Origin: Streptomyces purpureus
GTDB lineage: Bacteria; Actinomycetota; Actinomycetes; Streptomycetales; Streptomycetaceae
Direction of reading: 5' to 3'
Length of the DNA stretch: 64,000 nucleotides
Assembly: GCF_014648195.1 (NCBI RefSeq)
Contig: NZ_BMQQ01000019.1
Span: 1-64,000, forward strand
In this document: one piece after another, positions 49,652-52,482 of the stretch
Layout of the letters: the number at the start of each line of letters is the position of its first letter
Numbering within the stretch: position 1 is the stretch's first letter
Position numbers and translations under genes: made by a program
The notes under the pieces: model-generated
What the model saw: only the letters and a program-made list of their open reading frames with translations
Told to the model about the DNA's origin: nothing
The model's database searches: none

Positions 49652-50334
49652 GGGGCGGGCCCGCCTGCGGCGGGCGGCCCCGCACTTCGTGCGGCACGAA
49701 GCCGCGAGACCGGGGCCCTGCCCCTGCCGTCCCGCGCTTCGCGCGGCGCGCAGCAACCGCCGGGGGTTCGGGGGCGGAGCCCCCGCCGCCCCAGTCCCGG
49801 GCTGCCCTTCGCGGCGCGAAGCCGCGAGGCCGGGGGGCCGCCCCAGCCGTCCCACGCTTCGCGCGGCGCGCAGCAACCGCCGGGCTTGGGGCCTGCCCCG
49901 GTCTCGGCCGGCCCTTCGCTGCGCGCAGCCGCGAGGCCGCCCCGCGCGGGGCGTGGGTCGCTGCCGAGCTGTCCGGCCTTCGTGCGCTGCCGCCACGGCA
50001 GGGTTTGGGCCTGCCCCAGCCGTCCCGCGGCGCGCAGCGCCCGCGCCGGGGGTCCGGGGGCGGAGCCCCTGGTCCCGTCAGGGTTTCGGGGAGGGGCGGG
50101 GTGGGGGAATCTCCCCGCCCACCGGACCTCCGGCTTGTGTGTGCCCCCGCATCGGTGCTTGGCGGTGCGCAGCCGCCGACGGGTTTGTGGCCTGACCCTG
50201 TCGTCCCGCGCTTCGTGCGGCGCGCAGCTGCCGCGCCGGGGGGTTCGGGGGCCGAGCCCCTGGTCCCGTCAGGGTTTCGGGGAGGGGCGGGGTGGGGGAG
50301 CTTCAAACGCCCCCGGACCCCGCCGCGCGGCCCC
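49652..50334. repeat. GC-rich intergenic region with long direct repeats and hairpins
   Basis: This 683-base spacer has no supported gene. A perfect 46-bp direct repeat occupies 50063-50108 and 50254-50299. A second repeat of 30 bp occurs at 49735-49764 and 49855-49884, inside a longer similarity of about 70 bp with a 120-base period. Hairpins such as GGGGGC-GGA-GCCCCC follow the MocR gene and may terminate it. Such repeats are common downstream of Streptomyces genes and create spurious open frames. Confidence 0.7.
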
Positions 50335-51921
50335 TCAGCCCTCCGCCGGGACCGCCGGTGGCGCGACCCGGATCACCGGGAGGGACTCCGTCGGCGGGCC
50401 CGGGTCGTCGTCCAGGGACGGGGGGCGAGGGGGGAGGAGGGCCAGGACCGCCTGGCGGTGGGGGTCGCTCGTGGCGTCGTCGTAGGGGTCCGGTGTCGCC
50501 GGGACCTGGAGCCGGAGCACCGGGCCCGTGCCGAGGCGGGCGTAGCCGCGGCCCGGTGGGACGACCGGGGTCGGGGTCGTCCGGGGCTCGGCGCCCAGGA
50601 CCGCCGCGATCTGCCGCGGGGAGGCGGGGCCGAGCACGACCCGGGCCCGCGTGTGGCTCCGTACCGTCTCGTCCAGCAGCTCGACCGTGTCGAACTGCTC
50701 CGCCACCACCACCGTGACCTGCGCCGCCCGCCCGTGCCGCAGCGGCACCTGGAGCAGCTCCTGCGGGTCGGTGCGGCCGTCCGCCGCGGCCAGGTGGCCG
50801 AGGACGCTGGGCCGGTCCAGCAGGATCCACAGCGGGCGCCGGGTGTCATCCGGCGCCGGATGCCCGGCCTGCCGGGCCCGGTTCGCCGCGATCAGCCGGC
50901 GCTCGGTCTCGTGCGCCGCCCATTCCAGGCTCGTCAGCGCCCCGGCGAGCCCGCACTCGACGCCGAGGACCCCCTCCCGGCCGGTCATGCATGCGTACTC
51001 GCCCGTCCCGCCACCCTCGACGATCAGCACGTCGCCGTAGGCCAGCGCCTGCAGGGCGACGGAGCGCAGCAGCGTCGTCGCACCGCTGCCCGGCTGCCCG
51101 ACCACCAGCAGGTGCGGCTCGGTGGAGCGGGGCCCCGTGCGCCACAGGACCGGCGGGGCGTCGGCGGGGCCGTCGCAGGTGAGGACCGGCACGGTCCGCT
51201 GGACCGCGGCCGCGTCGGTGAAGCCCAGGACCGTTTCACCGGGCGCGGTGACGAAGCGCTGCGCGGCGATGGTCGTCGGCAGCGCGGGCAGCACGCTCAT
51301 CTCGAGCTGGTTGGCCTCCTCGTCCCAGTCGAAGAGGTACTCCCGGCCGCGGCCGGACTTGGCGTGCAGCAGCTGTTCGATCCGGGCGCGGGCGGCCGGC
51401 TCGCCGTCGGTGAAGTACGCCGGGTACTTCACCCGCAGGCGGGTGGGCCGTCCGTCGTCGAACGCGAAGTCACTGAAGGCGGCCGACCAGTCGCCGCCGT
51501 GGGTGAAGAGCGGCGCCGGGTCCTCCGGGACGGAGAAGTACGGCACCAGGGCCTCGTAGAGGGCCTTGAGGCGTTCGGTCTCCGCGTCGTCGGGGCCGGT
51601 CTTCACGGCCGGCCGCTCACGCCCCTTCCACGCGGCGGCCCCCATCAGCGACACGAGCGCGAGGAGCGGCCCGTACGGGACGAGGGCGACCACCAGGACG
51701 CAGGCCGCGACCAGGATCAGCAGGGGACCGCGGCGTTCCTTGGGTGTCGCGGCCCACTTGGCTCGCGCGGTCGCGGCCAGCCTCCGCAGACCACGAGTGA
51801 TCGTGATCAGCGGGTGGAGGACGTCGGTGGCGCTGTCGGCGGCCGTACGCGCGATCTCTCGGCTGCGAGCGATCTGTGCGTTGCCGCTGCTCAGAATGCG
51901 GGGGAGTGGTCGCCGGGCCAC
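50335..51921 (-). CDS. FtsK/SpoIIIE-like membrane ATPase
   Basis: A 528-residue protein with a basic N-terminal region, two adjoining membrane segments at about residues 65-95 (LLILVAACVLVVALVPYGPL) and a cytosolic ATPase domain. Walker A is LLVVGQPGSGATTLLRSVAL. RRPLWILLDRPSVLGHL replaces the usual Walker B acidic pair with LDRP, and VVPPGRGYARLGTGPVLRLQ matches the late FtsK/TraB-type block. GTG at 51921 has AGGAG six bases upstream. It follows a small membrane protein gene by 37 bases. Conjugative TraB or EccC-like function is possible but unproven. Confidence 0.75.
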   Translation of the reverse strand: MARRPLPRILSSGNAQIARSREIARTAADSATDVLHPLITITRGLRRLAATARAKWAATPKERRGPLLILVAACVLVVALVPYGPLLALVSLMGAAAWKGRERPAVKTGPDDAETERLKALYEALVPYFSVPEDPAPLFTHGGDWSAAFSDFAFDDGRPTRLRVKYPAYFTDGEPAARARIEQLLHAKSGRGREYLFDWDEEANQLEMSVLPALPTTIAAQRFVTAPGETVLGFTDAAAVQRTVPVLTCDGPADAPPVLWRTGPRSTEPHLLVVGQPGSGATTLLRSVALQALAYGDVLIVEGGGTGEYACMTGREGVLGVECGLAGALTSLEWAAHETERRLIAANRARQAGHPAPDDTRRPLWILLDRPSVLGHLAAADGRTDPQELLQVPLRHGRAAQVTVVVAEQFDTVELLDETVRSHTRARVVLGPASPRQIAAVLGAEPRTTPTPVVPPGRGYARLGTGPVLRLQVPATPDPYDDATSDPHRQAVLALLPPRPPSLDDDPGPPTESLPVIRVAPPAVPAEG

Positions 51922-51958
51922 GTCGTGCTCCTGATGGGGTGGAAGGGGTCGAGGGGCG

Positions 51959-52153
51959 TCAGAACTTGATCCCGCCCACGAGGCTGGCGAGGCTCTGGCC
52001 GCCCGCCGTGATGCTTGGGGCGATGGCCGTGCCCGCGAGGTAGAAGCCGAAGAGCGCGCAGACGAGTGCGTGCGATGCCTTGAGCCCGTCCTTCTTGAAG
52101 AACAGGAAGCAGATGATTCCGAGCAGCACCACACCTGAGATGGACAGGATCAT
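51959..52153 (-). CDS. small two-segment membrane protein
   Basis: A 64-residue protein with hydrophobic segments ISGVVLLGIICFLFF and ALVCALFGFYLAGTAIAP joined by a basic KKDG turn. It has a strong AGGAG site and lies just upstream of the FtsK-like gene on the same strand, in one operon. Size and layout recall the spread (Spd) proteins of Streptomyces conjugative elements, but there is no direct sequence motif for that. Confidence 0.75.
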   Translation of the reverse strand: MILSISGVVLLGIICFLFFKKDGLKASHALVCALFGFYLAGTAIAPSITAGGQSLASLVGGIKF

Positions 52154-52482
52154 TTGAGGTTCTCCTGGTTGAGGGGACAGTCACCATGAGTCCTTCCAGG
52201 TTCACGGGAAGTATCTATGCGATAAAAGGCCCATCAGGGTGAAAACCCGGCGATTTCACTTGACTGGCGGACGACAGGGAGTTCCCCGGGTGGCGCTCCG
52301 GCGGAATCGGGGGTTCAGGGGCCCTCCCCGGGCCCGTGGACACCGGCCGGATCGCGGTCATCTTTGCCATGGACAGCGCCGCTCATGTCCCTGAACGGGC
52401 AGTACCCTGTCGATTCACTCGTACGGCGGGCCCTGCCGTGCGCCCCACCAGCAGCAGTACCAGCGAAAGGCGGTCCGTCCCG
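52154..52482. other. intergenic region with divergent promoters
   Basis: This 329-base region lies between the small membrane protein (minus) and the ankyrin protein (plus). TATC/GATA arms lie at about 52210-52223 on the minus-strand side, next to a -10-like TAGATA for the membrane protein operon. No gene is evident. Confidence 0.35.

Follow-up and report, generated by a model that had tools for sequence, protein, structure and literature searches.

Background

The closest described system to the gene pair studied here is the smeA-sffA operon of Streptomyces coelicolor, for which Ausmees in 2007 reportedly found SmeA-dependent localisation of SffA to sporulation septa, in a founding paper whose title is said to ascribe several functions to SmeA. 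Later papers describe smeA-sffA (SCO1415, SCO1416) as an operon whose small membrane product directs an FtsK-like partner to the septa of sporulating cells (PMC4255298, PMC4125116, PMC5839063, PMC5859096), and the published lengths are 64 aa for SmeA and 596 aa for SffA (PMC10090380). According to a 2021 review, anucleate spores become five times as frequent when smeA and sffA are deleted, and whether SffA acts as a DNA pump or assists segregation in some other way is unclear (PMC7985256). The gene name is spelt both sffA and ssfA within the same papers.

Further described relatives include FtsK/SpoIIIE, the ATPase of structure 6o1w, and TrwB, which have the superfamily and a membrane anchor in common with SffA, and the EccC-type ATPases of type VII secretion, whose membrane segments lie near the N terminus, as in SffA. 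Here, we analysed a stretch of 64,000 nucleotides from Streptomyces purpureus (hereafter the window; contig NZ_BMQQ01000019.1, positions 1 to 64,000, from a genome of 7.54 Mb), in which an original prediction, made from the letters alone, had picked out an FtsK-like ATPase and a tiny membrane protein as a two-gene unit.

A smeA-sffA operon in the window

The pair and the elements discussed in this section are as follows:

smeA, positions 51959-52153, minus strand: 64-codon ORF that opens the operon and encodes a 64-aa membrane protein with two segments
sffA, positions 50335-51921, minus strand: 528-codon ORF for an FtsK-superfamily protein with a degenerate active site
SffA hydrophobic stretch, positions 51616..51738, minus strand: residues 62-102, a likely hairpin by hydropathy
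smeA upstream region, positions 52215..52265, minus strand: corresponds to the smeA promoter footprinted with BldC and has the CTTTTATCG repeat in common with it

The sffA ORF starts with GTG, has AGGAG 6 nt upstream, and is separated from smeA by 37 bp. ORFs and coordinates bear out a 64-residue membrane protein directly upstream of the ATPase, and its hydropathy shows two hydrophobic segments. Two membrane segments had also been proposed for the ATPase; hydropathy gives one long stretch, with 19-residue windows covering residues 62-97, which could offer room for two helices around P82, a proline invariant in 19 aligned rows. The C-terminal part of SffA is a P-loop domain. The flanking genes, judged from their translations, presumably encode an ankyrin-repeat protein and a MocR-type regulator, and a 46-bp GC-rich exact repeat lies downstream of sffA (window positions 50063-50108 and 50254-50299).

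Because of gene order, protein size, and the published BldC operator in orthologous loci, the window pair is identified, by sequence comparison, as the already described smeA-sffA sporulation operon (SCO1415-SCO1416 in S. coelicolor); the operon itself is already known. Gene order, a 64-aa SmeA, an FtsK-like SffA, a related promoter region, and core-gene status are all common to the window and to smeA-sffA of S. coelicolor and S. venezuelae (SCO1415-SCO1416; vnz_04885-vnz_04890), nothing of substance differs, and the window holds an orthologue.

The BldC-bound repeats published for the S. coelicolor smeA promoter (PMC5859096) were converted to a gap pattern and scanned over genome contigs, which yielded two genome records only, S. 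violaceorubidus (L037) and S. tendae (L038). In both, the pattern precedes, by 67 bp, the gene for a 64-aa orthologue of SmeA that is 83% identical to the window's and is followed by an SffA orthologue (72% and 71% identical, respectively). The S. coelicolor record is not among these two, so the tie to SCO1415-SCO1416 runs via close relatives. The window's own upstream region has one of the four BldC repeats exact, a loose site of a kind that, as stated in PMC6428758, sequence alone cannot judge. Over the 97 bp upstream of smeA, the window and L037 agree at 78% identity, where 50 shuffles average 59% and reach at most 64%; among the 20 loci compared, the more distant L051, L042, L039, and L115 do not exceed their own shuffles. 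Upstream of smeA, neither the BldM-WhiI Group II site TGnnCCGnnCGGGTGA (one 3-mismatch match in 250 bp vs 173 in 64 kb) nor the BldM motif was found better than chance.

Altered catalytic positions in SffA

Two motifs define the altered site:

Walker A loop GQPGSGATT, degenerate, positions 51073..51099, minus strand: residues 275-283, with Ala at the lysine position 281
Walker B WILLDRP, degenerate, positions 50809..50829, minus strand: residues 365-371, with Asp369 kept and Arg at the glutamate position 370

Searched against solved structures, a 19-row SffA profile matched 4nh0 best (whole-sequence E 1.7e-16; best stretch residues 269-511), then 6o1w (3.8e-9), TrwB (3.9e-6), and FtsK (4.9e-4), that is, other coupling or secretion ATPases match better than FtsK itself. 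We take 4nh0, deposited as 'Cell divisionFtsK/SpoIIIE', to be EccC, and 6o1w, a DNA translocase coupling protein, to be TcpA. The profile alignments to 4nh0 and 6o1w place GQPGSGATT on Walker A and WILLDRP on Walker B. The original prediction had counted the former as a Walker A motif, which does not stand with Ala at position 281; its observation that Walker B lacks the usual acidic pair was correct, and is no artefact of alignment, as the profile of 19 homologues sets WILLDRP on the DE of both structures. With Ala at the lysine position and Arg at the glutamate position, both catalytic signatures are broken, and the change in the ATPase, as read from these residues, had been understated, the Walker A lysine being lost as well.

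Active FtsK/SpoIIIE translocases are marked by a score above the Pfam cut-off and by a Walker A lysine with a Walker B DE, whereas SffA lacks the catalytic lysine and glutamate and the window protein scores 12.7 bits against Pfam FtsK_SpoIIIE, below the curated cut-off of 24, a marginal value for a single protein. The same model matches 15 of 19 aligned SffA relatives at E<=0.1 (best 1.5e-7), and the FtsK gamma-domain model is not among the eight families listed for the window's SffA at E<=1. EccC-type ATPases, the best solved match, differ in having three ATPase domains where SffA has one, with lysine and glutamate lost in SffA and no ESX genes recognised beside sffA. As a control, the FtsK of the same genome keeps GATGSGKS and VDE; a three-P-loop protein of that genome also has normal motifs in its first domain.

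How widespread the change is was surveyed in 116 loci (L007-L127 minus five non-sffA loci), of which 113 contain sffA (not L063, L064, L065); setting aside five identical copies and the broken L058 left 107 distinct proteins. Asp369 is present in every one of them (107/107). The lysine at 281 has been lost from 85 of them, with Thr as the replacement in 74 of the 85, and survives in the other 22; position 370 is non-acidic in all 85 (Arg 69, His 14, Gly 1, Gln 1), including both S. coelicolor relatives, L037 and L038, where the two catalytic residues are likewise lost. Among the 22 that keep the lysine, position 370 is acidic in 18 (Glu 16, Asp 2, with Gly 3 and Asn 1 in the remainder). The 22 comprise seven proteins of the genera g2 and g5 within the family, and every one of the 15 that came from the two other families sampled. 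The literature searched, available in part and with the founding 2007 paper outside it, yielded no text on the missing catalytic residues of SffA, and in the Streptomyces papers found with both SffA and 'Walker', the latter refers to something else.

One loss, then constraint and a presumably changed pocket

A tree of SffA was built from 54 rows, with near-copies thinned at 80% identity and the trait columns left out. On this tree, loss of the catalytic residues is a single change (SH-aLRT 91), the exact branch being less sure because of a long basal row (L040). Proteins that lost the residues have a median dN/dS of 0.185 (maximum 0.467, 27 pairs), against 0.125 (maximum 0.286, 7 pairs, L127 left out) for the group that keeps the site, so the altered SffA is under purifying selection, with strong constraint that is slightly relaxed relative to the site-keeping group.

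The loss is accompanied by changes at two further positions: every lost row (100%) and no kept row (0%) has an acid at 408, and 409 is basic in 4% of lost vs 95% of kept rows. Because of their place after the next strand, we read these positions as part of the former pocket, where the changes are possibly a charge swap. No compensating basic residue was found near the P-loop at the thresholds used, at which the basic residues gained in the lost group were R3, R4, R19, and R425, the last alone in the ATPase domain. Majority identity is 0.84 for the P-loop residues 275-286 vs 0.78 for residues 266-480. P-loops without lysine can on occasion still bind nucleotide, and with the loop this well conserved, nucleotide binding by SffA may persist. 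AlphaFold2, run on a three-row alignment of the window protein with L037 and L038, gave a mean pLDDT of 42, too low for a usable model.

Alternatively, SffA might still move DNA at the expense of ATP with an unusual set of catalytic residues, for example if the acid that arose at 408 has taken over the catalytic role of Glu370. The strong conservation of the P-loop and of Asp369, and the presence of an acid at 408 throughout the 85 lost rows, fit this explanation, as does the name DNA translocase given to SffA in PMC4125116, PMC5859096, PMC6428758, and PMC4151990. Lys281 is nevertheless gone in 85 of 107 proteins, R425 is the sole basic residue gained in the ATPase domain at the thresholds used, and the 2021 review itself treats DNA pumping by SffA as unclear; we regard a working translocase as unlikely.

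A core gene pair, with smeA kept where sffA is gone

SffA matches at E<=0.001 were present in 146 of 150 genomes of the family (f1, which we take as Streptomycetaceae), mostly one per genome (weak in G010), and in 197 of 197 genomes of an order sample, where only G098, G221, and G267 were weak (2e-6 to 9e-4). A class sample gave matches at this threshold in 92 of 296 genomes; its 27 strong matches all fall in the window's genus, of which G098 is again weak, and the best match outside these 27 is 7.9e-13. SmeA matches were found in 150 of 150 family genomes, in two of them only at paralogue level (G010, weak for both proteins, and G138, a genome 71% complete), and in G131 SmeA is cut at residue 51. 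Identity of SmeA orthologues to the window's is 56-59% in one other family (f3) and 62.5% or more elsewhere. Of 108 distinct sffA loci, 107 have smeA upstream of sffA in the same orientation; the remaining one, L127, starts 95 bases from the beginning of its contig. The pairing is thus above chance, with smeA and sffA recurring together across the family and order samples. The proposal of a small membrane protein paired with a member of the FtsK superfamily whose ATPase is altered is supported. We conclude that smeA-sffA is a core unit of its family and not a recent conjugative relic.

A few genomes have retained smeA without an intact partner. The usual flanking genes enclose smeA in G008 (L064) with sffA absent, and in G084 (L058) sffA is broken beside an intact smeA; in G098 (L063) and G221 (L169), smeA (66% and 70% identical) stands without sffA in another neighbourhood that is common to both. 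The apparent loss of sffA in G131 and G267 may reflect the position of smeA at a contig end. Retention of smeA without sffA agrees with the several functions that the 2007 title reportedly assigns to SmeA.

These cases, and the slightly higher dN/dS of the lost group, could be taken to mean that SffA is decaying and contributes little, with SmeA as the working part, and that sffA is in the course of being lost. Such decay is at odds with the strong SffA matches in the large majority of the 150 family and 197 order genomes, with a median dN/dS as low as 0.185, and with residues that are fixed rather than drifting at 281 (Thr) and 370 (Arg or His), and the fivefold rise in anucleate spores upon deletion of smeA and sffA argues further against it. 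We therefore consider decay quite improbable.

SffA as a probable pseudo-motor

The reading we favour, to which we give a probability of about three in four, is that SffA is a conserved pseudo-motor, tethered by SmeA, that helps spore chromosome segregation and maturation without ATP-driven pumping. During sporulation, SmeA brings SffA to the sporulation septa, as reported for S. coelicolor. On the tree, a single change within the family removed both the Walker A lysine (281) and the Walker B glutamate (370) from the motor domain, and the altered protein was then kept under selection with what we read as a rebuilt pocket (Arg or His at 370, an acid at 408). In this reading, SffA still folds like a translocase subunit, may still interact with DNA, with nucleotide, or with FtsK as the genuine motor, and acts as a septal scaffold or adaptor, perhaps together with FtsK, and not as an ATP-driven pump. 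The joint loss of the residues and the constraint that followed are observed; loss of ATPase activity, a scaffold role, and any partner are inferred.

Papers call SffA a DNA translocase, and conserved loss of both catalytic residues predicts no pumping. The seven sequences from two genera of the family, and the relatives in two other families, which all keep the lysine, are natural controls for this prediction. If the pseudo-motor reading is true, Streptomyces relies on a dead motor as a structural component when it segregates spore chromosomes, beside a working FtsK.

SmeA-like genes on plasmids and elsewhere in the genome

The original prediction had also suggested that the pair may be a domesticated relic of a conjugative system. 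A tblastn search of 72,556 plasmid records with SffA gave one match, and 50,697 phage records gave none. The single match (NZ_CP081497.1, 362000-363769) has smeA and sffA together, on a 2.8-Mb replicon that is listed as a plasmid of Streptomyces sp. BHT-5-2 and is perhaps a chromosome piece or fusion. SmeA-like genes were found on 63 plasmid records, one of these being that same pair. In the four annotated of five plasmid regions examined, the SmeA-like gene comes after genes labelled 'ATP/GTP-binding protein', 'TraB', and 'ParM', and on Streptomyces plasmids 62-aa SmeA-like genes lie directly behind a gene for a P-loop ATPase of ~714 aa in a conserved transfer-type block (e.g., L176:3769-6183, L177, L178, L179). 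When the best 60 rows for each protein were compared, drawn from totals of 159 and 89 records, 36 records were common to both lists, and in 34 of these 36 the SmeA-like gene follows the ATPase on the same strand by 40-140 bp (within 300 bp).

This plasmid ATPase is annotated as 'chromosome segregation protein ParM', or as 'putative TraA protein' in two records, and the ParM label looks wrong. Its Walker motifs read as intact (GVSRSGKT, Y[AG]DEF), and comparison with Pfam, NCBIfam, and solved structures returned nothing solid. We also considered whether it is membrane-bound, and rejected this on a hydropathy that is only weakly hydrophobic (best window 1.73). Homology to SffA was not detectable by hmmsearch or hhalign (hhalign probability 0.7%).

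The closely spaced SmeA-like genes behind plasmid ATPases in 34 of 36 shared records, and the gene labelled TraB that adjoins in the four annotated regions, are what a conjugation relic has in its favour. They are outweighed by the lack of a detectable relation between the plasmid ATPase and SffA, by the reversed order of the two genes on plasmids, by the confinement of SffA, among plasmid and phage records, to the one 2.8-Mb replicon, and by homologues in other families with the same smeA-sffA arrangement. Compared with a pSAM2-type TraB/Spd module, we found neither a presence of SffA on mobile elements nor a relation to the plasmid transfer ATPases compared (pSAM2 TraB lies outside this comparison). 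The relic idea is thus very improbable for the pair as a whole, SffA being a core gene with one plasmid match and no phage match, while, given the SmeA-like genes behind plasmid P-loop ATPases, the SmeA part may share ancestry with plasmid transfer modules.

Taken across the lineage, it is on balance probable that SffA is a pseudo-translocase that arose in one event, with a change from E370/R409 to R370 and an acid at 408 and with a septal role, and that proteins of the SmeA family partner P-loop ATPases both on chromosomes and in plasmid modules.

Three further SmeA-like genes (43-57% identical) occur in the window's genome (L060, L061, and L062, on contigs C13, C1, and C29, respectively), and by eye most genomes of the genus have counterparts of them. 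Inspection by eye within 1.5 kb revealed no ATPase gene directly beside the three, and their neighbours include what we take to be one MshB-type deacetylase-like gene and one trigger-factor-like gene. PMC3878966 reports that several SmeA homologues are encoded with FtsK-type proteins, and describes a SCO1195-SCO1196 pair. L061 precedes a secreted-protein-like gene and resembles this reported pair.
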